This document shows, piece after piece, positions 1,019 to 33,313 of a DNA stretch of 64,000 nt. How positions within the stretch are numbered: the stretch's first letter is position 1; every line of letters begins with the position of its first letter. A model generated the notes under the pieces. The model saw only the letters and a list, made by a program, of their open reading frames with translations. It was not told the DNA's origin and did not search any database. The position numbers were made by a program, and so were the translations under genes. The stretch comes from Sphingobium arseniciresistens (GTDB taxonomy: Bacteria > Pseudomonadota > Alphaproteobacteria > Sphingomonadales > Sphingomonadaceae), in NCBI GenBank assembly GCA_029167225.1, contig JARFNK010000001.1:496001-560000 (forward strand), in the 5' to 3' direction.

Positions 1019-3007
1019 TCACGATATCGATGGTCCGCCTCGCTCTCGTCCAAACCGCCAACTTACTCCGTCTGACCCCATTAGCCCGCTGACCTTGTTT
1101 CCCATCTGCCGTTCGAGCACGGGCCTCCACGGCACGAGGGTGAATTCCCGCGATCGTTCGACCAGGGCGAAGCGCCCGCTGACGAGGTCGACTGGCCGGC
1201 GATAAATCCCCTCGACCCGCGCGCCCTCCGCAGTTTCCTGGAACGGCATCTTGAGTTCTTCGGACAGTTGCCCCGCAATGCGCAGCAATTCGCGCCGTTG
1301 GAGCGCAGCGATCATGCCGTTCGGAAACATCGTGCCGCTGCCCGTCTCCTCGGCAAATCCCTGTGCCACCAGCCACTGCCGACGGCGCGCCTGGGCGTCG
1401 CGCAGATCATGCCCGAACCCGGCATCGCGGACGGGCTCGGGCGCCCCCGATACCAACTCCCGGTCGATCCACGTCGCGGCATCGGCCTCGACCAGCCGGT
1501 CGAGCGGCTGCGCCGACAGCGCGGTGATCGCCACTGGACGGTCGCGCAGCCGTGTTGCCTCATAGTTCGCCACGCGATCGAGATGATCGGCCGCGACGAT
1601 CCAGCGGCCCGACGGCTCGCGCTCGACGATGCCCCCTATCCGCCGCATCGCCTCGAGCCGCCGGACATGGGTCTCGGCGAAGGCTTCAGTGGCGGTCGGA
1701 TCGTGGCGCAGATGGGCATCGACGTCGTAGCGGCCGCCATTGGCAGCAGCGACCCTGACGATGGTGCGATCGACCTCCCGAACCTCGGGCCGGATCGGTG
1801 CGATCCGCACGATGGAGCCATGGGACATGATTGCATCGGTTTCCGCACCCTTGCCGATCCCGACATAATGGCTGCGTCCATCCGTGCCATCGACGATCAG
1901 ATAGTGGCGATCGGCATGCTCGTCGGCGAGCCCGCGCGCCAGCACGCGGCCGACGAGCGGGCGGGCATCGGGCGCGGCGGGATCGTAGATCGCCTGATCG
2001 GCAGCCCCGCGCTCGACCGCAGCGCGAGAAAATTCGCGCTGCATCGTGCGGATGATGTCGCCGCGCTCGCCCAATGCACGGAGTGTATCGGCGAGGTCGG
2101 GCGCGAGCCGGAATCGTCCCGCGCCGAGTGGCTCGGCCAGACCGAGGCGTGACAGCTTCGCCAGCCGGCCGGCACGCAGCGTCTGGTCCATGACGTCGCG
2201 ACCGTTGGTCGTCACCATCCGATCGGCGTCCACCCCTTTGAGCAAGGCCCGGTCGATTGACGTCAGACGTTCCTGTTCGACTTCGGCGCGCAGTGTCTGC
2301 TGGATTTCGCGGTGGGTACGCGGGCCGAGATCGAGATCGACCAGCTCGGCGGCGCGCTCGCGAATGCCGGTCGTCATAAAGTCGCGGGCGAGGATCAGGT
2401 CGGCGCCGCGATCGTCCTTCCCGCGCACCAGAATATGGGTGTGCGGATGGCCGGTGTTGAAGTGGTCGACCGCGATCCAGTCGAGCTTGGTCCCGAGATC
2501 CTCTTCCATCCGTGCCATCAGCCGCCGGGTCAGGGGTTTCAGATCATCATATTGATCGCCGTCCTCGGCCGAGACGATGAAGCGGAACTGGTGGCGATCG
2601 CCTGCCCCGCGCTCGCCGAACGCCTTGCCGTCGACGGCGTCGGCATCACGGCCGTAGAGCTGGCCGCGCTCACCGTCGCGCGTGGTACCGTCGCGCTGGA
2701 GATAGCGCAGGTGCGCGGCGGCGGCCGACGCGCCCTTGCCGGCAAGCTTAACGATGCTTGCCTTGACGATGACGCGGCGGCCGTTCGACGCCGCATGACG
2801 GCCACGGCTGGCGAGCATCCGCCCGACACCCGCGCCGCGTCCGATCCGGGTGCCCGAGAACGCTCCCCGCGCGAGGCCCGGGGCAGCCGTACCGCCGCGC
2901 GCAAGATTGGCGGCCGCGAGCACGCGGCCGAGATAGCGCCGGGCGCGCTTGCCACCCTGGCTGCGCTGGCGCCCGAGGCGCGGCTCGAAGCTGTCGTCGT
3001 CGGCCAT
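1019..3007 (-). CDS. VirD2-type relaxase with DUF3363 domain
   Basis: Conjugative relaxase, expected to nick the transfer origin and lead the single strand into the recipient. The 662-aa protein opens with an Arg/Gly-rich stretch and then a VirD2-like catalytic domain from about residue 80. Visible are 'IVKLAGKGASAAAAHLRYL' with 'RDG' and the metal-binding histidine motif 'DHFNTGHPHTHILVRGKDD'. The C-terminal half matches the DUF3363 region that accompanies these relaxases, ending 'LERQMGNKVSGLMGSDGVSWRFGRERGGPSIS', described here by its final residues GPSIS. Length is normal for the family and no disruption is seen. Upstream at 3040-3200 is a set of inverted repeats that could be its oriT. 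Confidence 0.9.
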   Translation of the reverse strand: MADDDSFEPRLGRQRSQGGKRARRYLGRVLAAANLARGGTAAPGLARGAFSGTRIGRGAGVGRMLASRGRHAASNGRRVIVKASIVKLAGKGASAAAAHLRYLQRDGTTRDGERGQLYGRDADAVDGKAFGERGAGDRHQFRFIVSAEDGDQYDDLKPLTRRLMARMEEDLGTKLDWIAVDHFNTGHPHTHILVRGKDDRGADLILARDFMTTGIRERAAELVDLDLGPRTHREIQQTLRAEVEQERLTSIDRALLKGVDADRMVTTNGRDVMDQTLRAGRLAKLSRLGLAEPLGAGRFRLAPDLADTLRALGERGDIIRTMQREFSRAAVERGAADQAIYDPAAPDARPLVGRVLARGLADEHADRHYLIVDGTDGRSHYVGIGKGAETDAIMSHGSIVRIAPIRPEVREVDRTIVRVAAANGGRYDVDAHLRHDPTATEAFAETHVRRLEAMRRIGGIVEREPSGRWIVAADHLDRVANYEATRLRDRPVAITALSAQPLDRLVEADAATWIDRELVSGAPEPVRDAGFGHDLRDAQARRRQWLVAQGFAEETGSGTMFPNGMIAALQRRELLRIAGQLSEELKMPFQETAEGARVEGIYRRPVDLVSGRFALVERSREFTLVPWRPVLERQMGNKVSGLMGSDGVSWRFGRERGGPSIS

Positions 3008-4028: not shown

Positions 4029-4673
4029 TCAACGGGGTGCGCGGACCGCGAACAGGCTGTCTGGTGGATCGTCCGGCGCGCGCGATGGTGACGGATCGCT
4101 GGATTTCGTGCTGGTCCGAAGCACGACGAACAATGCCGGTGGCGGCTGCTGTGGAGGGGATTGCGACGGACTTGGAACCATGCCCGACACCTGCGCGAGA
4201 TAGGCGCGCGTCTCGGCCGGCAGCGCACGGCCCGACGCGAGAAATGCCGCATAGCGGCCGGGACCGGCATTATAGGCACCGAACAGCCCGGGATAACCGA
4301 AGCGGTCATACATCGCGCGCAGATAGGCGGTGCCCGCCAGGATATTGTCGCGCGGATTATGGGGATTGTACCCGAGGCCGTGCGCCGCCCGCATCGCCTT
4401 CCACGTCACCGGCATCAGTTGCATCAGCCCCATCGCACCCGCCCGGCTCGTGATCGGCCGTCCGCCAAACACGGTCATGCCGCCGCTTTCGGCGCGGATC
4501 ACCCGCTCGATCCACGCCACCGGCACGCCGAACCGAGCGGACGCTTCGGCGATCTCGGCGCGCCAGCGCTGAACGGGATCGGCCCTTGATGAAGCGACTC
4601 TGGGCGGACCGGCCGCGGCGGACGTCGCAACGAGCAGCGCGGCGGCGAGCGCGAGCAACCTCAGCGCAGCCAC
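4029..4673 (-). CDS. Lytic transglycosylase (conjugation-associated)
   Basis: Periplasmic murein-cleaving enzyme expected to open the peptidoglycan locally for the conjugation apparatus. A GTG start at 4673 gives a clean signal peptide (VAALRLLALAAALLVATSAAA) and overlaps the end of the TraF gene by 13 bases. The open frame extends further upstream, but that part reads as out-of-frame TraF. The SLT domain is clear: 'ERVIRAESGG' with the catalytic Glu, 'GAMGLMQLMPVTW', 'NPRDNILAGTAYLRAMYDRF' and 'FGAYNAGPGRY'. The Pro-rich C-terminus is probably unstructured. About 214 aa. TraF and transglycosylase genes commonly sit together in such elements. Confidence 0.85.
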   Translation of the reverse strand: MAALRLLALAAALLVATSAAAGPPRVASSRADPVQRWRAEIAEASARFGVPVAWIERVIRAESGGMTVFGGRPITSRAGAMGLMQLMPVTWKAMRAAHGLGYNPHNPRDNILAGTAYLRAMYDRFGYPGLFGAYNAGPGRYAAFLASGRALPAETRAYLAQVSGMVPSPSQSPPQQPPPALFVVLRTSTKSSDPSPSRAPDDPPDSLFAVRAPR

Positions 4674-5257
4674 AGCGGGGTCGCCCTGCCGATGACATCC
4701 TGCCCCAATGTCGGCCCGAAATAGCGCCCGTCGAACGAATCCGGGGTCTCGGTCATGAGCAGGAAGACCATGCCTGGGGCCAGCCGGATGCAGCCTTGCC
4801 AGGCAGGCAGCGGGCGGTCCGCTGCGTCGGCATTGCGGCGCACCGCAACCGTCGTGCCGTTCACCAGTACGGAGCGATCCACCGCGCACACCATGTCGCC
4901 TGCGATGCCGGCGACGCGCTTCACCAGCGGCACGTTGCGGGGCAGATAGTGGCGGCTCGCGGCCAGTTGCCGCGCTTCGGCTGGCGGCCAGGCGACGGCC
5001 ATGTCGCCGCGCTTGAGCGCGGCGCCGGGCGATACGGCATAGAGACCAATGGGCGCGCTGGCGCTCGCATTCCAGACCAGCCGGGGCAGCGGCGGCAGCG
5101 CGATCGTGAGGCCGAGGCAGGCGATGCCGGCGCCGAGCAGCGCGGCGCGACGGAGCAGCCGCAGGCGGCGGACATGGGCCGCCCGCCGGACCTCAAACCA
5201 CGCGAACAGCGGCAGCGGGCGGTGGCCAGAGTGTTCTGGGGAAGGCCGCTCAACCAT
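4661..5257 (-). CDS. traF: TraF-type S26 signal peptidase
   Basis: Conjugal transfer peptidase, related to leader peptidase and expected to process (and in IncP systems cyclise) the pilin. The start at 5257 (MVERPSPEHSG) overlaps the stop of the HTH gene by 8 bases; the longer frame upstream is not needed. A membrane anchor lies near residues 40-60 (AALLGAGIACLGLTIALPP). The likely catalytic Ser is in 'SASAPIGLY' and the general-base Lys in 'VKRVAGIAGD'. The C-terminal 'DSFDGRYFGPTLGQDVIGRATPLW' is typical of TraF. About 198 aa, intact. Confidence 0.87.
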   Translation of the reverse strand: MVERPSPEHSGHRPLPLFAWFEVRRAAHVRRLRLLRRAALLGAGIACLGLTIALPPLPRLVWNASASAPIGLYAVSPGAALKRGDMAVAWPPAEARQLAASRHYLPRNVPLVKRVAGIAGDMVCAVDRSVLVNGTTVAVRRNADAADRPLPAWQGCIRLAPGMVFLLMTETPDSFDGRYFGPTLGQDVIGRATPLWLR

Positions 5258-5486
5258 GGTCGCCTCCCCGCGCGCGGGCCGTCGACCAGGCCTCGATATC
5301 GTCGATATGGTAGCGCCAGGTGCGGCCATGCAGGCGGCATTTCGGACCTCTTCCCGTCTGGCGCAGGCGCTTCAGCGTCGAATAGGCAAGGCCGAGATGA
5401 AAGGCCGCCTGCTTGGCGGTGAGGAAGGGGCAGGTCTCGCGCGCGGCCTGCGCACGTTCGGCGGTATCGTCCATGATCCAGTCCAT
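5250..5486 (-). CDS. Excisionase-like helix-turn-helix protein
   Basis: A small MerR/excisionase-type DNA-binding protein. The core 'FLTAKQAAFHLGLAYSTLKRLRQTGRGP' followed by 'WRYHIDDIEAWS' is the usual winged helix of 'HTH domain-containing' proteins in these elements. I chose the ATG at 5486 (MDWIMDDTAER); an ATG at 5474 is equally possible, and the upstream part of the open frame looks non-coding. Its stop overlaps the start of traF, so translation of the two is probably coupled. Its role, whether excision or control of the transfer operon, cannot be read from the sequence. Confidence 0.75.
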   Translation of the reverse strand: MDWIMDDTAERAQAARETCPFLTAKQAAFHLGLAYSTLKRLRQTGRGPKCRLHGRTWRYHIDDIEAWSTARARGGDHG

Positions 5487-5606
5487 CTGCGCCGGCGCAT
5501 CGTGCGCCGCTGATGAGCGCGGATTGGATCGATCCGGCCGTCTTCGGCAGGGTCGCAAATCGACCCATGCGATTCCGACCCCCCATGTTTCGGACGGGCA
5601 GCAATG

Positions 5607-5631
5607 CCCCGCGCCCTTGCAGGGCGCGGGG
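5607..5631 (-). terminator. Perfect GC hairpin after the DUF736 gene
   Basis: CCCCGCGCCC (5607-5616) and GGGCGCGGGG (5622-5631) form a perfect 10-bp stem with a 5-base loop, 8 bases past the DUF736 stop codon. No T tract follows, so termination is plausible but not certain. Confidence 0.5.
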
Positions 5632-5639
5632 CGGTTCGC

Positions 5640-5960
5640 TCAGTCGGCGGGATTCCAGATGATCGCGAAGGCGTCGTCGTCGTCCTGGCCCGCAGCGCGG
5701 CCGAGATTGGCGTAGAGCCGGCGCGGCCCGAATTCGGGGGCGGCGAGCGACAGCGACACATAGTCCTTGCCGCTCATTTCGCCGCGCCGGACCCATCCGG
5801 CCCCGACCTCGACGCCGGCCGCCGACACACGATAGTCGGGCTGGGTGTCCCCGGACTTGCGGGTGTTGGGAATGATCTCGATGTCGGTGCGGATCGAGAG
5901 CGTCTTGAGCTGGCCCTTGAAGCCGTTTCCGTCGCGGGTGACATAACCGATGGCTGGCAT
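5640..5960 (-). CDS. DUF736 family protein
   Basis: 106-aa protein starting MPAIGYVTRDGNGFKGQLKT, with the conserved DUF736 pattern: the N-terminal 'IGxV..d..GF.GxLkTL' and the C-terminal 'LYANLGRAAGQDDDDAFAIIWNPAD'. The family occurs almost only on alphaproteobacterial conjugative elements and plasmids, and its function is unknown. The ATG at 5960 was chosen because homologues start at MPxIGxV; the upstream extension is out of character. A single-gene unit seems likely, as a hairpin follows and a long non-coding leader precedes it. Confidence 0.88.
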   Translation of the reverse strand: MPAIGYVTRDGNGFKGQLKTLSIRTDIEIIPNTRKSGDTQPDYRVSAAGVEVGAGWVRRGEMSGKDYVSLSLAAPEFGPRRLYANLGRAAGQDDDDAFAIIWNPAD

Positions 5961-6621
5961 TGTTCGTCTCCTGAAAAGTCGCCCCGAACCGTTTCCGGGC
6001 GATGGGCGGACCGGAGGGACGGTCACGGCAGGCCCGCGAACCGGCAGGCCGGAGCGGCAGCGGAGGACCGGAGCCGAAGGCTTATTTGAAGCGCAGCGAC
6101 CGCGAGGAGCGCGCCTTGGCGGGCGGGGAAATAAGCCGCACGGCGATTGTTTCGCGGGGACTGCGGCCGTCCCAGGTCATGCGCCCGAGGAGCCGGAAAC
6201 GGTACGGGGCACAGCGCGCCAGACGACAATCGACATCCCGATGTGTCCCGCGCGAAGGCAAAGAGAAGCCGGCAGATGTACGCCACCGTTCCAGCCGGTC
6301 GATCGCCCAATTCTCGCTCGGTGAGGGCACCAACAGGGATTTGCGGCTGATAAGCAAGCAGAAGCGCGACGCAACTGGTCCGGCGCAAAGCATGCGTGGC
6401 AAGGCCAATGGCGGGGATCGTTCTCCGCGTCGCATTGATCTCGATCGCGCATTTTGCGGATCGGTGTGCTGCCGGCCGACGTCGCCCCATCGCTCCAATG
6501 GCGGCCGCGAAACGGTCCAGTTCGGGGGTCGCGACATCGCGGTCGAAACGGTAGAGATCGGTATCGCGTGCGGTTGGTCGCGCGTAAATTCGCCCGCCAG
6601 GCACTGTGAGAAGGAAGATGA
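5961..6621. other. Long non-coding leader with inverted repeats
   Basis: About 660 bases with no believable gene; the open frames across it have Arg/Ser-rich compositions typical of shadows. Seen: an imperfect hairpin GCCCCGAACCG/TTTCCGGGC at 5981-6000 just upstream of DUF736, and a perfect 9-bp inverted repeat GGCTTATTT (6079-6087) and AAATAAGCC (6129-6137) with a 41-base loop. Both could act in DUF736 expression or as a DNA-processing site. Confidence 0.45.
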
Positions 6622-7436: not shown

Positions 7437-9282
7437 TCAGGCGGCGAGGCGGTCGGCCTCGTCGTCGGGGTCCGGCAGGGCTTTCGCCGCGCCGGGTGCG
7501 CTCGGATCAGGCTCGTCCTCCGGCAGCTTCCGCCCGATTTCGCGGGCTGCCTGTGCCTTGGCATGGGCCGCGACGGTGCCGACGCCGCCGCGCGCGGTGT
7601 AGGCGGCGGGCGGGAACGCCATCCAGCGCGGCACCCAGCTTTCGCGTTTCACACGCCCGTTGGTGCCGTCGAGATGATCGCGGACGATGCGTTTCAGTGT
7701 CTTGGTCTTCTCTTGCCGATTGGCGCTGGCGACGGTTTCGCCCGCCACCTCGGCGACAATCCGGGTCAGCACTTCCCGGTCGCGGATCAGCTCGAAAAAG
7801 GCATCGTCGGCCTGCCAGCAGCGGGTCATATCGACGCCGATCTCGATGCCCACCGCCTCGACGGCGGCGCTTCCCGACGCCAGCGTTTCGCCCATGACGA
7901 TAGCGATCACTTCCATCACGACCGTTATCGGGAAGGTCGAGCAGGCGCTGGAAGATGCCGACGACGCCATAATCGTCGCTATTGCCCCCGGTCACGGTCG
8001 GTTCCTCGGCGGAGAAGCCGAGGACCGCCAGCACGGCGCGGCGGCGCTCGTCGAAATCGGCCTCCGCCTTGCTATTGTCGAGGCTGTCGCGCACCTCGTC
8101 GTTGCGGGTGGATTGCGGTTCGGCCTTGACGGTCCAGAGGTGCGAGCCGCCGATGGCATGGGCCACCATCAAGCGCAGCGCGATGGTCGGATGGCCGGTC
8201 AGCGCGGCGCGGACGGCGGCATGGCGATGCAGGTCGACATAGGTTTGCATGGTCGATGTCACCTCGGGTCGGGCGGGCTTGTGGCCGGTTACGCCACCAT
8301 TCTCCGAACCCTCGGCCGTGGCGAGGCGCGCCGCTTCCTTGCGGCTGACATAGCCCTCGTGGATCGTGACTTCGCCGCTTGCGCGCACGTCGACATAGAC
8401 GCGCCCGCCCTTGCGTTTGCCCGCCTTCTCATATTCCCATGTCGAGAAATGATCGGACGGCGGCACGGTGATCGCGTCGGCCCAGCCCTGCTCGACATAG
8501 GCCGCGCGGCGCGCCTCGATCGCCTCGTTCTGCGCGGTCCAGAAGGCATCGGCGTCGGCGAAATAGCGGTCGTCGCCGAACAGGTCGGCGATGGTCGCAA
8601 GTCCGCTCGCCTCCACGTCGAACAGCGCATGTCTCACCGGGATCGACTGCCCGCCGAACAGCCACGCCTTCAACTGGTGGCCGGTCGGCACATAGCTGTC
8701 CTCGTCCTCGGCCAACGCCAGCCATGCCTTTTGCTGGCTCTTGGAGGCCAGCGTCAGGTGGCGCACCGTTGCGCGGTCGATCTGCTCCTTGCGGTAGAGA
8801 TCGCGGATGCGCGGCAGCAGGTTGCCGAGCGCCAGCACGCGGCGGATGGTGAGGTCGGGCAGTCCGAAGGTGGCGGCGATATCCTCCACTTTGCGGCCCT
8901 CGCGGACGAGACGGGTGAAGTTCTCCCACTGTGTCACCTCGTCGGGGTCGAGCCGCGCCATGTTCTCGATCATCGACGCCTCGATGGCGTCGGCGTCGTC
9001 GCCCTCGTCGAGGATCGCACAGGGCAGCATTGCCGCATCGGGGTCGGCGTCGCCGCCCGCGCGCCGTTCGTCGGCGACGATCCTTGCGGCATGGAAGCGG
9101 CGGCTTCCGGCGACGATCTCATAGCCATCGGGCGCGCAGTTCGGGCGGACGATGATCGGCTGGATAACGCCACGGCTGCGCACGGTCGGCAGGATGTCGG
9201 ACACGTCTGGGGCCTTTTTGCCGTAGCGCATATTGGCCTTGCTCACGACCAGCTTGTCGAGCGGGATAAAATCGAGTTTCAT
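7437..9282 (-). pseudogene. ParB/RepB-like partition protein, interrupted by a frameshift near 7922
   Basis: ParB-like nuclease-domain protein of ICE backbones. The N-terminus (MKLDFIPLDKLVVSKANMRY) and 'GYEIVAGSRRFHAAR' are the ParB N-domain, 'MIENMARLDPDEVTQWENFTRLV' follows, and an HTH lies at 'VEDIAATFGLPDLTIRRVLALGN'. The expected C-terminus is found in the next frame (VVMEVIAIVMGETLASGSAA... ending DPDDEADRLAA at 7437). The switch is near 7922-7923, where GATAACGGTCGTG has one G too many compared with a continuous reading 'LPDN-VVMEV'. Without correction the first frame runs on to 7507 with a nonsense tail (591 aa). It may be a mutation or an assembly error; the rest of the gene is undamaged. 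Confidence 0.75.
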
Positions 9283-12246: not shown

Positions 12247-13045
12247 TCAACGCCCGCGCCGCATCAGCTGCCGGTATCCGCCGCGCGCCATGTCACGCGC
12301 CTCGCGCACCAGTCGCCGAACGCGCGAGCGCAGCGAATCCGAGGCACCGCTCCATTCGTGCGCCGTGCGTTCCTCGCCGAACAGCATCGCGCCGATCTCC
12401 CGCTGGCTCGCACCTTCCCCGAGCGCGTCGTGCACGCGCAGCAACTCGATCCCGCGGTCGATCCGAGAGTCGCGGGGAAACAGCGATCGCGCGAACCGGC
12501 GATGCCGGCACAGGTCGAGCAGGCGGCGCAGCGGCAGCAGCCGGGTTTCGGCCGAGGCCAGTCCGCGCAGCCGATAATGGAGCAGGACGGCGTCCTGCCC
12601 GGCCAGGCGCCCCTCCTCGATGTCGAGCCGGATGTGATGCCAGCCGTCGGACAGCACCGCATGCTCGTGCCCAGCGGGATCGATGGCGATCGCCAGCCAG
12701 GGTGCGATTCCCGCGATATGGATGCTGTCGGGATCGGCCGGATCGGCAGACAACGCGGTGACGGCGATCGTCCCGGGGTCGAGATCGGCATGCCAGATGA
12801 TCCGCGCCTCCGGGGCTGGGAGGCCGGGATGTTCCGCGAAAGTGCAGCCCCCAGGGCACGGGGGCGCCGGCGCTGCGGGTCGCGGTGCTGGCGCGCGTGT
12901 ACCAGCCGACATAGCCGGGATCGCGGCGCAGCCATTCCCACATCAGCCCCGCGCAATCGATGCCGCGCAAGGCACCATAGGACGCCGGGTCGCGCCAGTC
13001 GGCCCCCGGGCTGCGAGATCCTTGCCCATTCACGCGCGGTCCCAT
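12247..13045 (-). CDS. DUF6499/DUF2285 regulator in two frames; candidate FseA-like excision activator made by +1 frameshift
   Basis: The N-terminal part starts at ATG 13045 (MGPRVNGQGSRS) and carries the DUF6499 pattern 'DWRDPASYGALRGIDCAGLMWEWLRRDPGYVGWY'-like, read to codon 69. The DUF2285 part continues in the +1 frame ('AEHPGLPAPEARIIWHADLDP' onward) to a stop at 12247, giving about 265 aa in all. The join is ...CAC TTT C GCG GAA...: after TTT (12841-12839), skipping the C at 12838 restores the reading. A TGGGGG stretch lies 6 bases upstream. In ICEMlSym(R7A) two overlapping frames (msi172 and msi171) are joined by a programmed +1 shift to make FseA, which activates excision. The same domains, the same shift direction and a neighbouring luxR suggest the same here; a sequencing error is the alternative. 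Without a shift, frame 1 would run on to 12293 as an unrelated tail. Confidence 0.72.
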
Positions 13046-13278
13046 CTCCGGCGCGTCGTTGCACCCCCGGCATCCCCGGCGCAACGATCCGGCGTATCGC
13101 CGTCGCCGTTCGCCGAAAGGCAGGTTTTGTGTTGCAATGCATCATGATACGTCAGTTCCATGACATTGCTCGCCGGGTGACGGCTTGAGGAACCGCCGCC
13201 CGGCCCAAGGGACCGGGAAAGGGCGACCCGGGGATTTTCGGTGGCTTGAGACACCGCCCGGGGCCGCGACGCTGCCCT

Positions 13279-14052
13279 ATGGGCATGCACAACATGGCGA
13301 CGCAGTTCATGCGCGTCGTCGAGGCCGTGGCGAATGCAGACGATCTTGCCGCCGCGATGACGGCGGTGACGGAACAGCTCGGCTTTCAGTATTTCGCGCT
13401 GACACACCATGTCGACATCATCGCGGCGAGTGGCAGCGCCATTCGCCTCCACAATTATCCGGCACGCTGGGCGGACTATTATGACCGCAATGCGCTCGGC
13501 GTCTCCGATCCCGTCCACCGCGCCAGCCATATGACCAGCGTCGGCTTTCCCTGGTCGCGGATGTCCGAGCTGATCCCGATGACCCGCGAGGACCACCGCG
13601 TGCTGGCGATGGGCCGCGACCAGGGCATCGGCGACGGATTCACCGTGCCGGCGCATGTGCCCGGCGAGGCGCGGGGCTCCTGCTCGTTCGCCAACGAGGC
13701 GGGCCGGCCGATGCCGCACGAAATGCTGCCGCTGGCGCAGCTCGCGGGGATGTTCGCCTTCGAGGGCGCGCGGCGGCTCTGGGCGATGCGCGGCGGCTTG
13801 GAGATGCCACCCCGCCCCGTCCTCACCGACCGCCAGCGCGACTGCGTGCTGTGGGTCGCGCGGGGCAAGAGTGACTGGGAGATCAGCCTCATCCTGGGCG
13901 TCGGCGAGGAGACGGTCGCCCGTCATGTCAAGCAGGCCTGCGAGCGCTACGGCGTGAACAAGCGGACATATCTCGTGATCCTGACGCTCTTCGACGGAAC
14001 GCTGACCTTCTCGGATATCTTTCGCCGCCGATATTACCCTTTTCCGGAATAG
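13279..14052 (+). CDS. LuxR-family quorum-sensing regulator
   Basis: Acyl-homoserine-lactone-responsive transcription factor. The N-terminal autoinducer-binding domain (about residues 5-160) has 'LGFQYFALTHH', 'YPARWADYYDRNALGVSDPV' and 'GIGDGFTVPAHVPG', which cover the usual Trp, Tyr and Asp contacts. The C-terminal GerE-type HTH reads 'LTDRQRDCVLWVARGKSDWEISLILGV...TVARHVKQACERYGV'. I took the ATG at 13279; ATGs at 13285 and 13294 are also possible and no strong ribosome binding site separates them. It is divergent from the DUF6499/DUF2285 gene and 56 bases upstream of the luxI-type gene, the expected layout for quorum control of ICE excision and transfer. Confidence 0.88.
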   Translation: MGMHNMATQFMRVVEAVANADDLAAAMTAVTEQLGFQYFALTHHVDIIAASGSAIRLHNYPARWADYYDRNALGVSDPVHRASHMTSVGFPWSRMSELIPMTREDHRVLAMGRDQGIGDGFTVPAHVPGEARGSCSFANEAGRPMPHEMLPLAQLAGMFAFEGARRLWAMRGGLEMPPRPVLTDRQRDCVLWVARGKSDWEISLILGVGEETVARHVKQACERYGVNKRTYLVILTLFDGTLTFSDIFRRRYYPFPE

Positions 14053-14078: not shown

Positions 14079-14096
14079 TTGGCCGATCACGGTCAA
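14079..14096. promoter_or_regulatory. Candidate 18-bp lux/tra-box-like dyad before the autoinducer synthase
   Basis: TTGGCCGATCACGGTCAA is an 18-bp imperfect dyad (6 of 9 positions in each arm pair), the length usual for LuxR/TraR operators. It lies between luxR and luxI and abuts the AAGGAGG ribosome binding site. Binding is inferred only. Confidence 0.35.
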
Positions 14097-14108
14097 GGAG
14101 GCAGTCTC

Positions 14109-14723
14109 ATGCTGCATGTTGTTCAATCCGCCGCGCGCCCGGAATCGGACGCGGTTCTTCGCGCAATGTTCGAGGCGCGCAAATCCGTCTTCGTCGACCT
14201 GCTCAAATGGGACGTTCCCGTCCTCGACGGCCGCTATGAGGTCGACCAGTTCGACGATGTCCACGCCGCCTATCTGATCCTCGCCGAGCCGGACGGCACT
14301 CATCTCGGATCCGCTCGGCTGCTGCCGACGACGCGGCCGCATATCCTCGACAGCCTCTATGCAGAACTGTGCGAGGAGGCTCCGCCGCAAAGCCCCGACA
14401 CTTTCGAGATCACCCGCTTCTGCCTCGATCGCCGGCTGAGCGCGCGCGAGCGCCGCCAGGTGCGCGACACGCTGGTGACCGCCCTCGTCGACCATGCGCT
14501 GGCGACGGGCATCGCTGCCTATAGCGCGATCGCGGAGATGGGCTGGTTCCAGCAGATCCTCGCCTTTGGCTGGCGCTGCATGCCGCTCGGCCTCCCCAAG
14601 ATCATCGACGGGACGATGCTCGCGGCGCTTCGTATCGAGATCACGCCGGAAACCCCGGCGCTGCTCGCAGCCGGTCACATTACCGCGTCGGCATTGCGTA
14701 TCGACCAGCGCGTCGCGGCCTGA
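14109..14723 (+). CDS. Acyl-homoserine-lactone synthase (LuxI/TraI type)
   Basis: Makes the acyl-homoserine-lactone signal from S-adenosylmethionine and an acyl carrier. 204 aa from the ATG at 14109 (MLHVVQSAARPES), preceded by a good AAGGAGG site 7 bases away. Conserved residues are visible: 'MFEARKSVFVDLLKWDVPV' (Arg, Phe and Trp of the family), 'YEVDQFDDVHAAYLI' (Glu/Asp), 'GSARLLPTTRPHIL' and 'FEITRFCLDRRL'. It is followed 18 bases later by a phytanoyl-CoA dioxygenase-like gene on the same strand. Together with the luxR gene upstream it forms a self-contained quorum circuit on the element. Confidence 0.9.
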   Translation: MLHVVQSAARPESDAVLRAMFEARKSVFVDLLKWDVPVLDGRYEVDQFDDVHAAYLILAEPDGTHLGSARLLPTTRPHILDSLYAELCEEAPPQSPDTFEITRFCLDRRLSARERRQVRDTLVTALVDHALATGIAAYSAIAEMGWFQQILAFGWRCMPLGLPKIIDGTMLAALRIEITPETPALLAAGHITASALRIDQRVAA

Positions 14724-16388: not shown

Positions 16389-17771
16389 CTATATAGCCAG
16401 GGCCTGCAGCAGCAATCGGTATCGGCGCAGCATTTCGGCCTGGGGCGGCGTCGCCGTCGGCTCATGCTCGTCGCATTCGGCCAAGGCTTTCGCGATGGTC
16501 CCCCACTTGCAGTCGCCTTCAAATAGAAGGCGTTCGCGAACATGGGCGCGGACGGATTCTTGCAGTTCGGGCGGCAGCAGGGCCGGGCTTTCGGCGTAGA
16601 TGATCCGCGCGCCAAGCAGCGCGAAGCGGCTTTCGGTGAATTGTGAAAGCAAGAGATGTCGATCCGGCCAGGGCGCGGCATGAAACCGGTCCATGAGCCG
16701 TTCGTCAGGCGTCGAGGCAAAAGCGCCATAGATCATCTGCTCGACATGCTCTGGCTCGTCATACTGAAGCTTCGAACTTTCGTAGGCCTCGAGGAGGCGC
16801 GCGACGAAGGAGGTGTCGGCAAGCACGGCAGCCGCTCGATGCACGATTTCCGCTTCCGACAGGCCACCAAGTGACCAGGCCGGTGCATCGTAGATCGATC
16901 GCAATGTTGGTGCCGCGTTGATCTTGACCTTGCGAAGAGGCTTGGGCTTGCCGGTGATGCAAGCCATCAAGGCATGATCGGGCATCGCGGCGAATGCCGC
17001 TGGATCATGGCTCAAGTCGAAGCACAGGTGCTTGGTGGATTGCTCGCGATCGACACCGACGCAGATTATGGGAAAATGTTTCTGCCCGCCAAAGCTGTAG
17101 AATTCGCTCAGCAGGACGGGATCGCCGTCCAGGAGAAAGGCTTCGGTCGCCGCCTTTTGCGAGAAGCGAATGAAGTTGGACCATTCGGCCGACGCGCCGT
17201 CGGCGATAATCCGGCACATGTGGATGACGGCCTCGACGTCGGCCATCGCATCGTGGGCATTGCTGTGATCAAAGCCGTTGGCCGGAGCGAGTTGGTCGAG
17301 CTTGAAGTTCGGCCTGCCGTTGGCCTTCGATGGAATGACCAGGCAGTCGGGCTCGAACTGGGCGACCGTCTTGACGAGCATCATCGCGTCCGCGCGCGCA
17401 TTCCCCTCGCGCTGCGTCAGATAGGGGTTGTGCAGGGTCTGATATTGCGCCTGCCGCAGCAATTCCTCGTCAAATGCCAGGCTGTTGTAACCGACAAAAA
17501 TCGCGGGCGACCATTCGAGCATTTTGGCGCGAATGGCCCTGACCATCGCATAATGGGTCGGCAGGCTGGGATCGGTTGCCTGCTCGATGGAAACGCCGGT
17601 TACGAGCATCGCGCCCGGTGACATGATCACATGCGGCAACAAGCGGCAGCGGATTTCGAACCGGTCAATCTCTTCGAGATTTTCGTCCGTCTTTATCGCG
17701 GCAAATTGCAGAATCTGGTCGAAGCGCGTGTCGGTTCCGGTGGTCTCGGTATCATAGAAGATGAATGCCAC
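16389..17771 (-). CDS. DEDDh exonuclease, exodeoxyribonuclease I-like
   Basis: 460-aa protein opening MAFIFYDTETTGTDTRFDQILQFAAI, the ExoI motif of DEDDh 3'-5' exonucleases (Asp and Glu at residues 7 and 9). 'FVGYNSLAFDEELLRQ' carries the second Asp, and 'NAHDAMADVEAVIHM' supplies the His and last Asp. Length and layout match SbcB-type exonuclease I, which degrades single-stranded DNA in repair. Chromosomes normally carry their own copy, so this is likely an island-borne version that might process ICE DNA or counter host nucleases (inference). It lies 17 bases downstream of the ImmA-like gene on the same strand. Confidence 0.82.
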   Translation of the reverse strand: MAFIFYDTETTGTDTRFDQILQFAAIKTDENLEEIDRFEIRCRLLPHVIMSPGAMLVTGVSIEQATDPSLPTHYAMVRAIRAKMLEWSPAIFVGYNSLAFDEELLRQAQYQTLHNPYLTQREGNARADAMMLVKTVAQFEPDCLVIPSKANGRPNFKLDQLAPANGFDHSNAHDAMADVEAVIHMCRIIADGASAEWSNFIRFSQKAATEAFLLDGDPVLLSEFYSFGGQKHFPIICVGVDREQSTKHLCFDLSHDPAAFAAMPDHALMACITGKPKPLRKVKINAAPTLRSIYDAPAWSLGGLSEAEIVHRAAAVLADTSFVARLLEAYESSKLQYDEPEHVEQMIYGAFASTPDERLMDRFHAAPWPDRHLLLSQFTESRFALLGARIIYAESPALLPPELQESVRAHVRERLLFEGDCKWGTIAKALAECDEHEPTATPPQAEMLRRYRLLLQALAI

Positions 17772-20882: not shown

Positions 20883-21575
20883 ATGCAGCAGCGATATCGG
20901 ATCGCAGATGGAATCGGCTTCTGCCGGTTCGAGGGTCGCACGATCGTCCTCGACATCACCGCCGACCGCTATTGGCAGCTCGGCGAGGATGCGGGGCGCG
21001 TCCTGGAGACCGTAGGCGCCGGCATGACCGTCGGCATCGACGAACATGCGCTGGCGCGGCTGGTGACGCTCGGCTTCGTCGCCCCCGCCGGCGAGAGGCC
21101 GGCAGCCATGACGGAAAGCCTTGGCGCATCGATCGGCGCCTCTCTATCGCATCCATCGAAAAGTGCGCTCGAGCGGGGCAGCCAGCAGGCGCGTGCCGGC
21201 TGGACGATGGCGTGCGAGGTCACCACGCTCGCGATCGCGGCCCGCGTGGCACTGCGCAGGCTTGCGTTGAAGACCATCATGGAGCGGCTGACGGCTCGAC
21301 GCCTGCGGGCGACACCGATCCATTCCGCAAACAATCTCGAACAGCTTGCGCAACGCTTCGCGCGATGCCGGCGACTGCTCCCTTTGCGGCCGCTGTGCCT
21401 GCCGGATTCGATCGCGTTCCTCTGGTTCGCCATGCGTCGCGGCCATGCCCCGCGACTGGTGTTCGGCGTCGAGGCCTTTCCCTTCACCGCGCATTGCTGG
21501 GTGCAGGATGGCGACGTCGTCCTGACCGACGCGCTCGACCATGTCGGCCGCTTCAAGCCGATCATGGTGCTGTGA
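20883..21575 (+). CDS. Lasso peptide B1-B2 protein: leader-recognition domain fused to protease
   Basis: 230 aa. Residues 1 to about 75 form the PqqD-like recognition element that binds the leader ('FEGRTIVLDITADRYWQLGEDAGRVLE'). Residues 100-230 form the transglutaminase-like B2 protease with a visible catalytic set: Cys172 ('RPLCLPDSIAF'), His204 ('FTAHCWVQ') and Asp216 ('LTDALDHVGRF'). It removes the leader so that Gly1 can be cyclised. The start at 20883 (MQQRYRIADGIGF) lies 49 bases after the precursor, and the stop overlaps the C gene start by 4 bases (GTGA). Fusion of B1 and B2 is normal in Proteobacteria. Confidence 0.9.
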   Translation: MQQRYRIADGIGFCRFEGRTIVLDITADRYWQLGEDAGRVLETVGAGMTVGIDEHALARLVTLGFVAPAGERPAAMTESLGASIGASLSHPSKSALERGSQQARAGWTMACEVTTLAIAARVALRRLALKTIMERLTARRLRATPIHSANNLEQLAQRFARCRRLLPLRPLCLPDSIAFLWFAMRRGHAPRLVFGVEAFPFTAHCWVQDGDVVLTDALDHVGRFKPIMVL

Positions 21576-23326
21576 CGAGCGATAGCTACCTGGCGATCGT
21601 CGCGCCCGTGGCCGATCCGGGAGCGGTGCGGCGGATGGCGGAGCGCGCTGCGGAAAGACTCTCGCTGATCCCGGCGTTCGAATGCGACGGCCTGGTCGTT
21701 CTCGTCGATACCGCGACGCGGCTTCGCCGGTTCGGCGAAGCTGGTATCGCGGTCGGCTCGACCATGGCCCGAAATGGCGATGCCGGCATAGCGGGCGGGG
21801 CCGATCGATGGGACGGACGCCAGTTCGCGGGCGCCTTCTGGGGCGATCATGTCGCATTCTTCCGGCCGCAAGGCAGGGGCGAGATCTCGGTCATTCGCGC
21901 GGCATCGGGGCGTCTTGCGGCATTCCGGATGACGGTCGGCGGGATCACGCTCATCGCATCCGAGCCTGCGCTGCTGCTCGCGCTGACCGATGCAGAGCCG
22001 CGCATCGACTGGCGCTTCGTCGCGCATCATCTCGCCTTCCCGCACCTGCGCTGCGGCGCGACCGGTCTCGCCGGCATCGACGAATTGTTCGCAGGCGACC
22101 GCACGACATTCGCCGGGACGGGCACGCGGCGTCAATCGATCTGGAATCCCTGGGACTTCGCGGCGGCCGAGCGGCAGGTCGCGGACCTGGACGAGGCGCG
22201 GCACATGCTGCGAACCTCCGTCAACGAGGCGACCGCGGCGCTGGTGCGACCCTATCGCTCGATCCTGCTGGAGCTGTCGGGAGGGCTGGATTCGTCAGTG
22301 CTCGCGGCGGCGCTCGCAGCGTGCGGCGCGCCTGCCACCGCGCTCAACCTCGTCACGCCGCGTGCCGAAGGCGACGAGCGGGACTATGCCCGCGCCACTG
22401 CGGCAGCCACGGGCCTTGTACTTGCTGAACACAATGTCGCAGCCGACGTCGACCTGACCCGGCCGGTGGAATGCCGGTCGGCGCGGCCCGGCATTCCGCA
22501 GCTTCTGGCGCCTGCCGACCGCTTGCTGGGCGACACGGCGCGGGCGGCGGGGGTGGAAGCCTTTGTCAGCGGGACCGGCGGCGACTGCATATTCTGCGCT
22601 CCGGGGTCGGCGGCGCCGGCCGCCGATGCGCTCCGCCGTTTCGGTCCCGGCCGCCGCTTCCTGCGCGCGGTATGTCACATTGCCGAAGTCCATGACACGA
22701 GCCTGTGGATCGCGGGCTCGATGGCGTGGCGACAGGCGCACCGGCCGCCGATCCACCGCGTCTGGCCGGGATCGGATGCCTTTCTCGCAAGGGACGTGCT
22801 GCCGCGCGAACCCGACTTCCATCCCTGGCTCGTCGAGCCCGATGACGCGCTGCCGGGACGGCGCAGCCATGTCCGCGCGGTCGTTGCGGCCTTCGCCCAT
22901 CTCGATGGCTATGCACGGCACGCCGTCGCCCCGTCGCTTTTTCCGCTGCTGAGCCAGCCGGTGATGGAGACCTGCTTCAGGATTCCGACTTGGATGTGGA
23001 TCGACGGCGGGCGCGACCGGGCGGTCGCGCGCCAGGCGTTCAGCGACGTGCTGCCGGCGAAGGTGATCGACCGCCGGTCGAAGGGCGGCATGGACGCCTA
23101 TTGCCTGCGGAACTTCGAGGCCAACCGCGCAAGGCTGGAGCCCTATCTGCTCGATGGGCACCTTGCCGGCGCCGGCCTGCTCGATCGACCCACTGTCGCG
23201 GCCTATCTCCGCCAGCCGGTGGGATCGCGCGATCCGCGCTTCTATCGCCTGCTGCCGATCATCGATGCCGAGGCCTGGGCACGCGGCTGGCTCGGCCCGG
23301 AGCCTGGGCCGGCCAGCGCTCCATAG
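21572..23326 (+). CDS. Lasso peptide macrocyclase (asparagine synthetase-like C protein)
   Basis: 584 aa. It activates the Glu8 side chain with ATP and joins it to Gly1. The ATP-pyrophosphatase motif SGGLDSS lies at residues 236-242, and 'FVSGTGGDCIF' and 'VIDRRSKGGMDAYC' are further family signatures. The N-terminal glutaminase-like half lacks the catalytic Cys, as in other lasso C proteins. I chose the GTG at 21572 because it couples to the B stop; the longer open frame upstream is a shadow of B. The 3' end overlaps the convergent isopeptidase gene by 85 bases. Confidence 0.9.
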   Translation: MTSDSYLAIVAPVADPGAVRRMAERAAERLSLIPAFECDGLVVLVDTATRLRRFGEAGIAVGSTMARNGDAGIAGGADRWDGRQFAGAFWGDHVAFFRPQGRGEISVIRAASGRLAAFRMTVGGITLIASEPALLLALTDAEPRIDWRFVAHHLAFPHLRCGATGLAGIDELFAGDRTTFAGTGTRRQSIWNPWDFAAAERQVADLDEARHMLRTSVNEATAALVRPYRSILLELSGGLDSSVLAAALAACGAPATALNLVTPRAEGDERDYARATAAATGLVLAEHNVAADVDLTRPVECRSARPGIPQLLAPADRLLGDTARAAGVEAFVSGTGGDCIFCAPGSAAPAADALRRFGPGRRFLRAVCHIAEVHDTSLWIAGSMAWRQAHRPPIHRVWPGSDAFLARDVLPREPDFHPWLVEPDDALPGRRSHVRAVVAAFAHLDGYARHAVAPSLFPLLSQPVMETCFRIPTWMWIDGGRDRAVARQAFSDVLPAKVIDRRSKGGMDAYCLRNFEANRARLEPYLLDGHLAGAGLLDRPTVAAYLRQPVGSRDPRFYRLLPIIDAEAWARGWLGPEPGPASAP

Positions 23327-25335
23327 GCCTGCCAGCGGCGGTACTGCGCTGCCTTGGCGGGATCGGGGTCGATCCAGCCCTGCAGCCAGTAGCGGAACCA
23401 GTCGAGGTTGCGCGCATTGGCCGCCAGCTGATGCCGGGGCTGCCATTTGACATGCACCTCGTCGGGAAAGGCCCAGAGTTCGACCGGCTTGCCTGCCCGC
23501 TGGAGCCGCGCCAGCAGCTCGACATTGGGCCGATATTCCTGCTCGGGAAGCTGCATCAAGAGCGGCGCCTGGATCCGGTCGGCATTGAAGGCGGGCGACA
23601 GCTCGCGCCAGCCGCGAGGGTCCTGGTCGGGGTCGCCGATGCCCCAGCCCGATTTCAGCACCTCGGGGACTTCCCGGCCCTTGACCGCGTTGAACCAGTA
23701 GTAAGTCGGGGTCAGCAGCACGTTCGCGATCGAGGTCGCCGCGAGCAGGCGGGTATGCATCGCGATCCAGATCGTCGACTCGCCTCCGAAGCTGACCCCG
23801 CCCATGCCGACCTTCGTCCGGTCGACGATGCGGTCGCGGGCGAGCAGGTCGATCACTGCCTCAATGCCGGATTGGGCGATGCGGTAGGCGCCGACCTGGT
23901 CGCCGACCCCATCGGGCGCGGGATAGCGGTTGATGCAGAGCGCGGCGATGCCGTGCCGGGCGAGTTCGCGTAACGGGAATTCGTCGCCGAGGCCGCCGCG
24001 CAGATAGCCGCCGCATGAATAATAAGTGACGAACAGCGGCGCCGGCCCCGTTACCCCATCCGGTCGCAGGAGTTGGCCGGTGAAGCGCCGGCCCGCACGA
24101 TCCACCCAGCTGATCGGGCGAAATTTCGGCGCGGCATCGGCAAGCGCCGGGTTCGGATCGACCAGCAGGCGCGGCTTGCCTGTATCAAGCTCGATCGCGA
24201 CGAGGTGCGGCGGCACGTCCGCGGCCGCCGCGACGCACACTATGGTTCGGGTTCCGATGGCGCAGCCCTGCGTCTGGTCGCGACCACCGCCCAGCAGGCC
24301 CTGTCCGGTCGCGATCGTGTCAACAACGCCCGACCCCACGTTCCAGCGATGGAGGCTGGAGTTGCCACCGCCGTCGCTCGTCTCGAACACGAGTGCATCG
24401 GCCCCCCGCTGCCACGTCACCGACCGGATGCGCTGCCCGGTGCAGGCCGCCGCGCCGCACCGGAGCGCGCCCTGGAGTCCCGAGCCCCTGGCGACCAGCA
24501 GTTCATGGCGGGCGCCCGAGGAGAGGACATAGGCCGTGCCGCGCCCGTCGCCCGAGGCAATGCGGGCGACGAGGAACCGCCCATCCAGCTTGTCGAACGC
24601 CTGGGGTGCCGGCGCGAGCCGCGCCGCCTCCGCCGCCGTCGCATCGCGGGCCAGCCCCGAGGCGATGTCCACCGTCCGCACCTGGGGCGCCTGGTCGGCC
24701 AGCAGCCCGGCATGGCCGAACCAGAAGCCGCCGAGCCGCTCGGTTGCCCGGCGTCCATCGATCCGGCCGCCGCGATAGAGCGGGCGCGAAGGATCGACCT
24801 TTGCGTCGATCAGCACGCCGTCGTCATGTTCCCTGTTCTCCGCGCGCACGATTTCGTCGCGCGAAGGCCCGACCCGGTAGGTGATGCTGCGGCCATCGGC
24901 CCCGAGCATCATGTCGATCACATTGCCCGACTCCGCGGTTGTACGTGCCACTCCCGAGCCGTCGACAGCCGCACGCCAGACCTGCACCTCGCCGTCGATG
25001 ATCGCGCGATAGAGGATGTAGCGCGAATCCGGCGACCAGATCGGCGGCTCGGAAAGCAGGGTGCCGTTGAGCCAGGTGCCTTCGCCGGCATCGGCGAGCC
25101 GGCGCGGCGGCGCGCTGCCGTCGACCGGCACGACGAACCAGGCGAGGTCGTGCGCATTGCGCTCGATCGAGGCGACTTCCTCACGGAACGCCACCATCCC
25201 GCCGTCCGGCGAGATCGCGACGCTGGACAGGTCGGTGAGCTCGATCATCTCGCGCATCGATGGCGTGCGCTGGGCTTGGCTCACGCCGGGAAGGGCAAGA
25301 AGCGCGAAGAGGATCGACAGCCGCCGCTTTACCAT
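23242..25335 (-). CDS. Lasso peptide isopeptidase (S9 family, AtxE-type)
   Basis: 697 aa with a signal peptide (MVKRRLSILFALLALPGVSQA), so periplasmic. The first two thirds look like a beta-propeller ('AISPDGGMVAFREEV', 'IWSPDSRYILYRA'). The C-terminal hydrolase domain has the nucleophile Ser in 'GMGGVSFGGEST' and the catalytic His in 'FPDEVHVKWQPRHQ'. AtxE-type enzymes linearise the matched lasso peptide by cutting the isopeptide bond, and they mark the sphingomonad/Caulobacter class of lasso loci. It is convergent with the C gene (85-base overlap) and its start overlaps the end of the TonB receptor gene. Confidence 0.9.
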   Translation of the reverse strand: MVKRRLSILFALLALPGVSQAQRTPSMREMIELTDLSSVAISPDGGMVAFREEVASIERNAHDLAWFVVPVDGSAPPRRLADAGEGTWLNGTLLSEPPIWSPDSRYILYRAIIDGEVQVWRAAVDGSGVARTTAESGNVIDMMLGADGRSITYRVGPSRDEIVRAENREHDDGVLIDAKVDPSRPLYRGGRIDGRRATERLGGFWFGHAGLLADQAPQVRTVDIASGLARDATAAEAARLAPAPQAFDKLDGRFLVARIASGDGRGTAYVLSSGARHELLVARGSGLQGALRCGAAACTGQRIRSVTWQRGADALVFETSDGGGNSSLHRWNVGSGVVDTIATGQGLLGGGRDQTQGCAIGTRTIVCVAAAADVPPHLVAIELDTGKPRLLVDPNPALADAAPKFRPISWVDRAGRRFTGQLLRPDGVTGPAPLFVTYYSCGGYLRGGLGDEFPLRELARHGIAALCINRYPAPDGVGDQVGAYRIAQSGIEAVIDLLARDRIVDRTKVGMGGVSFGGESTIWIAMHTRLLAATSIANVLLTPTYYWFNAVKGREVPEVLKSGWGIGDPDQDPRGWRELSPAFNADRIQAPLLMQLPEQEYRPNVELLARLQRAGKPVELWAFPDEVHVKWQPRHQLAANARNLDWFRYWLQGWIDPDPAKAAQYRRWQAYGALAGPGSGPSQPRAQASASMIGSRR

Positions 25336-31839: not shown

Positions 31840-33063
31840 TCAGCCGCGAGCGAAGTTCGGCTTCAGCACTTTCGCGCCGTCGCGCAACTCGTCGAGATGA
31901 TCGGACCAGTGCTGCATCATCCGTACGCGCTCGTCCCAATATTCGCCGCGGGTGTAGGCACGCCGGATGGCGTTGGTCTCCATATGGGCGAGTTGGCGCT
32001 CGATGGCGTCGGGATTGAACTTGCCCGTTTCGTTGAGCAGCGTCGCCGCCATGGCCCGGAAGCCGTGCGCCGTCATTTCCTCCTGACCAAAGCCGAGTGC
32101 CCGCAGCGCCGCGTTGACGGTGTTCTCCGACATCGGGCGCCGCGGCGAACGGAAGGAAGGGAAGCAGTATTTCCCCGTGCCCGTCAGCTCCCAGAGTTGC
32201 TCGAAAAGCTTGGTGACCTGCGTGGACAGCGGCACGCGGTGTGGTCGTCGCATCTTCATCTTCTGCTCGGGGATATTCCAGACCGAGCGGTCGAAGTCGA
32301 ACTCGCTCCACTCCGCCTGGCGCAGTTCGCCGGGGCGCACGAACAGGTGCGCCGACAGCCTGAGCCCGAAGAGGGTGATGGCATGCCCGGTATAGCCCTC
32401 GATGGCGCGCATGAGTTCGCCCGCGCCCTTGGGCGTGGTGATGGCGGCGAGATGCTTGGCCTTGGGCACGGTAAGCGCGCCGCGCAGGTCACGCGCCGGA
32501 TCGGTTTCTGCCCGCGTCGTCGCAACGGCGTAACGGAACACACGGCTGAGGACGCTGCGCATGCGCCGCGCGCTTTCGTATCGGCCCGTGGCCTCGACCG
32601 AGCGGAGTACGACAAGCACCTCCTGCGCGGTGATCTTGGCGACGGGGCGGTTGCCGATCTTGGGATAGGCCTTGGCGAGCAGCCAGCGGATCTTGCTCAG
32701 GGTGATCTCTGCTATCCCCTCACGCTCCTGCTTGGCGACCCATTCCTCGGCGACCAGCTTGAAGCTGTTTTCCTCGGACAGCATCGCGCGCGCCTCGGCA
32801 AGCTTGGCCTCGTGCGAGGGATCGAGGCCGGCGGCGATCAGCTTGCGCGCCTCGTCGCGCCGCTCGCGCGCATCGGCGAGGCCGACGTCCGGCCAGGCGC
32901 CGAAGGAGAGCGTGCGCTGCTTGCCGAGATAGGCGTAATTGAGCCGCCAGAGCTTGCGGCCGTTCGGCTTGACGAGAAGATAGAGCCCGGCGCCGTCGGT
33001 GAGCTTGTATTCGCGCTCCCTCGGCCTGGCGCTCGTGACAGTGGTCGCGAAGAGTTTTCCCAT
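31840..33063 (-). CDS. int: Tyrosine site-specific integrase of the ICE (P4 type)
   Basis: 407 aa from the ATG at 33063 (MGKLFATTVTSARPREREYK). The N-terminal arm-binding DUF4102 domain is plain ('YKLTDGAGLYLLVKPNGRKLWRLNYAYLGKQRTLSFGAWPDV', seen in parts), then a core-binding domain and the catalytic domain: Arg in 'HLFVRPGELRQAEW', His-x-x-Arg in 'TAHGFRAMAATLL' and Tyr in 'RAYTRGEYWDERVRMM'. Two further in-frame ATGs at 33099 and 33111 would add 12 or 16 residues. It lies 163 bases from the 3' end of tRNA-Leu, the usual target of P4-type integrases. Confidence 0.92.
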   Translation of the reverse strand: MGKLFATTVTSARPREREYKLTDGAGLYLLVKPNGRKLWRLNYAYLGKQRTLSFGAWPDVGLADARERRDEARKLIAAGLDPSHEAKLAEARAMLSEENSFKLVAEEWVAKQEREGIAEITLSKIRWLLAKAYPKIGNRPVAKITAQEVLVVLRSVEATGRYESARRMRSVLSRVFRYAVATTRAETDPARDLRGALTVPKAKHLAAITTPKGAGELMRAIEGYTGHAITLFGLRLSAHLFVRPGELRQAEWSEFDFDRSVWNIPEQKMKMRRPHRVPLSTQVTKLFEQLWELTGTGKYCFPSFRSPRRPMSENTVNAALRALGFGQEEMTAHGFRAMAATLLNETGKFNPDAIERQLAHMETNAIRRAYTRGEYWDERVRMMQHWSDHLDELRDGAKVLKPNFARG

Positions 33064-33112
33064 GGTATCGGCCCGTCCATAAGGGGCCTTCGATACCATG
33101 CAGGATACCATG
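33061..33112. promoter_or_regulatory. Three copies of a GATACCATG repeat at the integrase start
   Basis: CATGGTATCG at 33061-33070 and CGATACCATG at 33091-33100 form a perfect 10-bp inverted repeat; GGATACCATG at 33103-33112 is a near third copy. Inside the outer arms GGCCC and GGGGCC can also pair. All three overlap possible integrase start codons, so a protein bound here, or an RNA fold, could block integrase translation or transcription. Confidence 0.55.
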
Positions 33113-33226
33113 TTTGTTCCCGATTGGTGCCGGATCAGCCCGGATTTGACCGGACGATCTTAGCACAAAAAACGGCTGAAATCAGCCACTTTCGGGACGT
33201 TCCCGGACGCCGCCGGAAGAACAAAT

Positions 33227-33313
33227 GGTGCCCAGAAGAGGACTCGAACCTCCACGACCTTGCGATCGCCAGCACCTGAAGCTGGTGCGTCTACCAATTC
33301 CGCCATCTGGGCA
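33227..33313 (-). tRNA. tRNA-Leu (CAG)
   Basis: Full tRNA cloverleaf on the minus strand. The acceptor stem GCCCAGA (5' end at 33313) pairs with TCTGGGC before the encoded CCA (33229-33227). The anticodon stem CCAGC/GCTGG flanks the loop TTCAGGT with anticodon CAG. A long variable arm and the T arm GGTTCGAGTCC are present. It is the insertion site of the element, and its 3' end faces the integrase. Confidence 0.93.

Follow-up and report, generated by a model that had tools for sequence, protein, structure and literature searches.

An FseA-type excision activator, probably read through a +1 ribosomal frameshift at TTT-C, in a lasso-peptide-bearing ICE of Sphingobium arseniciresistens

The closest described counterpart of the gene treated here is fseA (msi172-msi171) of ICEMlSym(R7A) in Mesorhizobium. 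There a low-frequency +1 shift yields FseA, which activates rdfS and is itself inhibited by QseM; such a shift is needed by about 61% of 4709 FseA homologues in proteobacteria (PMC10359603). In that source, +1 sites are stated for alpha-, beta- and gamma-proteobacteria, sphingomonads go unnamed in the main text, and the FseA box is given as a pair of inverted hexamers before rdfS, separated by 15 or 16 bp, with the box hexamer of R7A 62-67 bases upstream of that gene. Quorum control of fseA has been reported and fseA has been studied on Mesorhizobium ICEs (PMC5882170, PMC8627217), and the Azorhizobium homologues of FseA are described as having no shift (PMC9601964). A Trp-Gly pair before the site was noted as a possible nascent-peptide stimulator, with only the first two bases of the FseA Gly codon conserved, and for release factor 2 a weakened pairing in the E site has been put forward as favouring its +1 shift (PMC5009743). 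A literature search combining FseA, frameshift and Sphingo- words found no sphingomonad report, the papers being by title on Mesorhizobium, Azorhizobium or general subjects. This mode of expression is already published and the gene described here adds another example; the suggestion in the original prediction that it would carry the frameshift brake onto new ground was overstated.

Here we analysed a stretch of 64,000 nucleotides of Sphingobium arseniciresistens (assembly GCA_029167225.1, contig JARFNK010000001.1, positions 496,001 to 560,000), hereafter the window, in which the DUF6499 and DUF2285 halves of one ICE excision regulator had been proposed to lie in two frames that join when the C at 12838 is skipped after TTT. 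Reading of the frames and their Pfam domains bears this out, and with a probability of roughly 0.9 the locus encodes a single FseA-orthologous activator, made through a +1 step at TTT, that switches rdfS and the excision of a 78-kb ICE at tRNA-Leu(CAG). The parts of the gene are as follows.

12839..13045, minus strand: frame-0 part of fseA (DUF6499/PF20109, by Pfam), through TTT; start at ATG 13045 or GTG 13033
12838..12853, minus strand: shift site TGG-GGG-CTG-CAC-TTT-C, comprising Trp-Gly, the pre-shift codon CAC, the slip codon TTT and the skipped C
12247..12837, minus strand: +1-frame part of fseA, with the middle domain and DUF2285/PF10074 (by Pfam), stop included
12293..12838, minus strand: frame-0 extension of 181 codons after TTT, not conserved and probably a by-product

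On the minus strand the shift site reads TGGGGGCTGCACTTTCGCGGAA, with the Trp codon starting at 12853, TTT at 12841-12839 and the skipped C at 12838. Read from 13045, frame 0 yields a DUF6499 domain whose last residues, VPWGLHF, reach TTT (PF20109 at 12836-13000, E 1.2e-14), and the DUF2285 frame begins at 12837 (PF10074 at 12259-12552, E 1.6e-20). The joined protein (P0001, 265 aa) scores 53.5 bits with PF20109 and 73.9 bits with PF10074, both above the Pfam cut-offs, and carries MWEWLRRD as its DUF6499 motif, where the family motif is AWEFLRRN-like. Trp and Gly form the fourth and third codons before TTT, as described for FseA (PMC5009743). When the window is compared with up to 12 relatives, blocks below 60% identity excluded, the differences ahead of the site concentrate on third positions of frame 0 (30, 15 and 62 per codon position), and after the site the third-position excess lies in frame +1 in 5 of 5 blocks (25, 23 and 67 in the first block).

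Among other known systems, prfB, the gene of release factor 2, would share with fseA a +1 slip of the peptidyl-tRNA and has a G-rich stretch upstream as well, whereas fseA has no stop codon in the A site (0 of the 156 sites surveyed below), its Trp-Gly is conserved also as protein, and its G-stretch lies 6 bases from the slip site in the window, against the 3 bases of the internal Shine-Dalgarno spacing of prfB. RovC of Yersinia (6xz5), the only solved relative at E up to 1 by sequence (E 5.2e-5, 26 bits in all), aligns with the DUF2285 part and gives a weak second match (4.4 bits) at the LRR(D/N)P stretch of DUF6499; RovC activates a type VI secretion system (PMC10359603).

The window holds the right 33 kb of an ICE of about 78.2 kb, delimited by an 18-bp exact repeat at C1:451014 and at window 33226-33243, of which a 25-base query found only the tRNA copy and a 17-base query both ends. 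The features of this element that bear on the argument are listed here.

1019..3007, minus strand: RlxS relaxase (NF041267, 1010 bits, cut-off 850)
4661..5329, minus strand: traF-like signal peptidase S26 (Pfam S26)
5250..5474, minus strand: rdfS-like excisionase, from HTH_17 and gene order
5552..5579, minus strand: FseA-box-like inverted repeat GTCGGA-N16-TGCGAC, 5 of 6 pairs, a candidate target before rdfS
13246..14052, plus strand: luxR-type regulator (domains: autoinducer-binding and GerE), start position provisional
14079..14723, plus strand: luxI-type autoinducer synthase, by domain match
31840..33111, minus strand: tyrosine integrase of the element, adjoining tRNA-Leu
33226..33243, plus strand: 18-bp exact attachment repeat within the tRNA-Leu(CAG) gene 33226-33312, paired with a copy at C1:451014

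The feature set of the ICEMlSym(R7A) type is present, namely RlxS, TraF-like and RdfS-like proteins, a TrbE-family match, an integrase and attachment repeats at a tRNA gene. Two assignments are backed by models under their cut-offs, as the S26 peptidase reaches 91 of 100.25 bits with TraF_Ti and TIGR01764 matches the rdfS-like gene only below cut-off; the order DUF736-HTH-S26 peptidase around the latter is as in a Sphingomonas paeninsulae plasmid (L207). The TrbE-family match is partial, in an 828-residue frame at C1:462452, TrbE being the only trb gene sought. Both the window's gene and FseA combine DUF6499 and DUF2285, with the +1 relation at UUU and the same placement of Trp-Gly, and both elements have RlxS, TraF, RdfS and LuxR-type quorum genes; the inverted-hexamer box before rdfS has a candidate counterpart in the window. 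The two differ in that the window's fseA (12247..13045, minus strand) is divergent from luxR, as had been stated, whereas R7A fseA lies behind traI2, and in that frame 0 continues for 181 codons here, whereas a review puts the R7A shift near the 3' end of msi172. In addition, the window's candidate box is farther from rdfS, its element carries lasso-peptide cargo, and no QseM-like gene was found on the window's contig, where a search of C1 for a lone DUF2285 gene besides fseA gave none at E 0.001; a weak DUF2285 match in the window, at 17032-17253, has E 0.002.

The claim of lasso-peptide genes on the element also stood, as genes for a B2 protein and an isopeptidase lie within it. This cargo (window 20883-30072) comprises a lasso peptide B2 protein, an Atxe2-type isopeptidase, a TonB receptor, FecR and an ECF sigma factor, and is comparable to that of the Sphingomonas paeninsulae plasmid. 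The same plasmid has the same shift site, and its neighbouring genes resemble those of the window (DUF2285 gene, luxR, luxI, phytanoyl-CoA dioxygenase, GntR and lasso peptide genes). A blastn search of plasmids matched mostly the luxR-luxI part, and among the best 20 of 28 records one extends into the DUF2285 gene. The window's own genome has three DUF6499 loci above cut-off, each with the +1 arrangement; the two outside the window, at C31:97455-98609 (L220) and C66:281159-282326 (L219), have a lone DUF2285 (QseM-like) gene just upstream of fseA.

As for the putative target of the activator, we examined 15 loci, in 6 of which no rdfS-like gene was found; GTCGNN-N15/16-NNCGAC stands upstream of 7 of 9 rdfS-like genes, the upstream regions of L219 and L220 having no GTCG-type repeat. 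The pattern alone occurs at chance in the window (11 matches against 6.0 expected, sd 2.7), and the evidence for the box is thus its shared place before rdfS, where other hexamer pairs with an equal or better match are also present. The candidate lies 77 bases before the likely rdfS start. A search for a Lux box before fseA gave no convincing shared dyad in 14 upstream regions. Two copies of CTCAAGCC, in minus-strand reading, are found between fseA and luxR at 13182-13189 and 13243-13250 as possible regulator sites, and similar copies are conserved in part of the 14 regions.

Further support for the joined reading comes from homologues. When public genomes were scanned with the DUF2285 part, 15 loci came up, of which 14 (L042-L055) are clear relatives and one (L056) is a weak Bacillota match. 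In 13 of the 14 relatives, all from other genomes, TGG-GGG-Leu-His-TTT-CGC precedes the DUF2285 frame in +1 relation, so that both the extra base and TTTC recur; the fourteenth (L053) retains only a WGLH remnant, with TCT replacing TTT and a rearranged N-terminal part. One of the relatives, L042, has a DUF2285 part 97% identical to that of the window and the same fseA shift. In a wider survey, DUF6499 was detected in 103 of 396 genomes drawn from the order, 21 of 337 from the class and 43 of 398 from the phylum, the draws overlapping. The loci examined were the stronger DUF6499 matches of these draws, the 15 scan loci and 100 stretches from longer lists, and weak and unshifted homologues are therefore under-represented in the figures that follow. 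The 207 sequences contained 203 DUF6499 matches, reduced to 191 by merging identical domain DNA only and with the window's relatives included; 183 have a downstream DUF2285, and 8 have none within the stretch examined. Relative to DUF6499, the DUF2285 frame is at +1 in 158 of the 183, in the same frame in 24 and at +2 in one. These proportions, with the domains and the ICE gene set, argue for the proposed FseA-type activator joined at TTT-C. The lone +2 case (L084) has TTTCGCC and is probably a later frame loss or an error. One sequence (L209, 4270-6173) holds tandem fseA-type genes, the first of the +1 kind and the second (5436-6173) one open frame.

A TTT is present in 157 of the 158 +1 homologues. 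Two of them gave no site by pattern, were excluded from the site counts and were inspected separately: L071 has TTT-C one codon farther on than the other sites, and L090 reads TGG AGG TTG CGG TGT, having lost the slip codon, and is possibly a dead copy. The remaining 156 sites fall into 143 groups at 90% protein identity and 57 at 50%. All 156 use TTT as the slip codon, whereas TTT makes up 31% of the Phe codons of these genes, and the base that follows, C at 145 sites and T at 11, permits re-pairing in either case. The A-site codon is mainly CGC (77) or CCC (50). Trp is kept in 154 of the 156 sites and Gly likewise, and since Trp-Gly is also present in 18 of the 24 in-frame homologues, it is partly a feature of the protein and alone no proof of a nascent-peptide stimulator.

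Alternatively, the two halves might be separate genes, one for a DUF6499 protein and one for an independently started, possibly QseM-like DUF2285 protein. In the window the DUF2285 frame stays open over the 35 codons that precede the site, with an ATG at 12912, an ATG is present at the same place in 5 of 14 loci, and a GTG or TTG follows 28 codons after the site in 6 of 14. However, homologues differ widely in how far this frame is open ahead of the site, in several of them from 5 bases before the end of TTT, L052 has no start from 15 codons before the site to 59 after it, and the conserved TTT would be left unexplained. There is no start position common to all 14 loci, on which ground a separate DUF2285 gene was rejected; we consider this arrangement very unlikely.

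Somewhat less likely still is that the frame-0 extension constitutes a second functional protein, as the original prediction had suggested on noting, correctly, that this frame reaches 12293. The extension spans 181 codons in both the window and L042, but 1 to 136 codons in the remaining 12 relatives that have the site, and over 156 homologues the median is 17, with 71 ending within 10 codons and 7 reaching at least 181. A Pfam search of the frame-0 product matched only the shared DUF6499, and NCBIfam gave no match. In addition, stop codons are denser near the site (4.1% in codons 1-5 and 4.9% in codons 6-10; 4.7% and 3.6% when weighted) than in later bins (1.2-2.9%), and early frame-0 stops downstream of the shift site may be favoured. 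The stop densities hint at selection for early frame-0 termination, which is not evident in the lineage of the window.

It is highly improbable that the shift stems from faulty sequencing or assembly, or from a dead gene with a lost frame. The genome is marked as 6% contaminated, and the same element has a frame break unique to the window in a ParB-like gene (7507-9282, minus strand), whose frame is lost near 7930-7950 where L042, L043, L044 and L207 read on, either a one-off break or an assembly error. In contrast, the fseA shift is common to 13 of 14 relatives, among them L042 with its ParB gene in one frame, TTT is invariant at the pattern-found sites, and the third-position differences mark both frames as coding. 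Equally improbable is slippage of the RNA polymerase in place of the ribosome, for which the T run alone speaks (TTTT in 11 of 156 sites), as three Ts are short for transcriptional slippage and the Trp-Gly and pre-TTT codon biases fit ribosomal decoding.

Returning to the ribosomal +1 shift, the codons around the slip site are biased in ways that the amino acids alone would not predict from the usage of the same genes. The Gly codon of Trp-Gly is GGG in 103 of 154 +1 sites (67%, with 51 other Gly codons) against a background of 16%, and in 4 of 18 in-frame homologues (Fisher p 0.0004 against the +1 sites, relatedness not corrected). Of the 41 alignment columns that contain 15 or more Gly, none has a higher share (0.67, next 0.43), and in 4 of them GGG is the most frequent codon. 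Where Arg precedes TTT, the codon is CGA in 38 of 43 cases against a background of 9%, again the highest share of 87 Arg columns (0.88, next 0.29). After grouping at 50% protein identity, the weighted counts are 32.2 of 55.7 for GGG and 19.5 of 21.5 for CGA. The share of TTG after Gly (0.36) is narrowly the highest of 76 Leu columns (next 0.33), and the slip column is the sole one of 16 Phe columns with TTT as its commonest codon. Among homologue pairs 30-70% identical, the slip column ranks first of 122 in its rate of identical codons, the preceding codon third, Gly 11th and Leu 121st, so that the Leu codon is biased and not fixed.

Directly before TTT, a G is observed in 7 of 156 sites against 36 expected from codon usage. 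His at this place is mostly CAC (31 of 36), which is also the window's own codon, and Ser is TCC or AGC in 30 of 33. As these C-ending codons pair well, weak E-site pairing cannot account for all sites. In these hosts CGA would be read through an I-A pair. The CGA bias before TTT suggests a signal at the level of the RNA or the tRNA. The GGG bias is compatible with an added role of the RNA beside the Trp-Gly residues. The original prediction had taken the TGGGGG stretch for a possible internal Shine-Dalgarno stimulus as in prfB, whose spacing is shorter, and GGG is preferred at the site but not required. The profile of anti-Shine-Dalgarno pairing peaks at the shift site, a peak that largely follows from Trp-Gly itself and is given no weight here. 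Parsimony on a tree implies no fewer than 21 switches of the Gly codon to or from GGG and no fewer than 11 between classes of pre-TTT codons, the directions being set aside because alphabetical tie-breaking favours GGG and CGA. Our search found no description of such RNA-level codon signs around the skip site, the site alignment of the original 2015 PNAS paper lying outside it.

Taken together, we propose that ribosomes arrive at TTT after Trp-Gly-Leu-His and that in a fraction of passages the peptidyl-tRNA-Phe slips by one base, from UUU to UUC, whereby translation would enter the DUF2285 frame. The joined protein, which we infer to be an orthologue of FseA in the strict sense, would bind the inverted repeat at 5552-5579 ahead of rdfS, activating rdfS and the genes behind it so that the integrase excises the element, and ribosomes that do not shift would leave an inactive by-product. 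Transcription of fseA would be under the control of LuxR-LuxI, and the quorum signal and a presumably low-frequency shift might thus act as two brakes in series.

The present analysis makes an ICE excision switch readable where annotation tends toward a truncated DUF2285 gene alone, as in the Sphingomonas paeninsulae plasmid, and it ties a lasso peptide cargo to an element gated, on this reading, by quorum sensing and frameshifting in sphingomonads. The codon biases at the site offer a direct and cheap test of bacterial +1 shifting without an A-site stop codon, and the interest of the locus lies in a complete, testable ICE switch together with this signal at the codon level.
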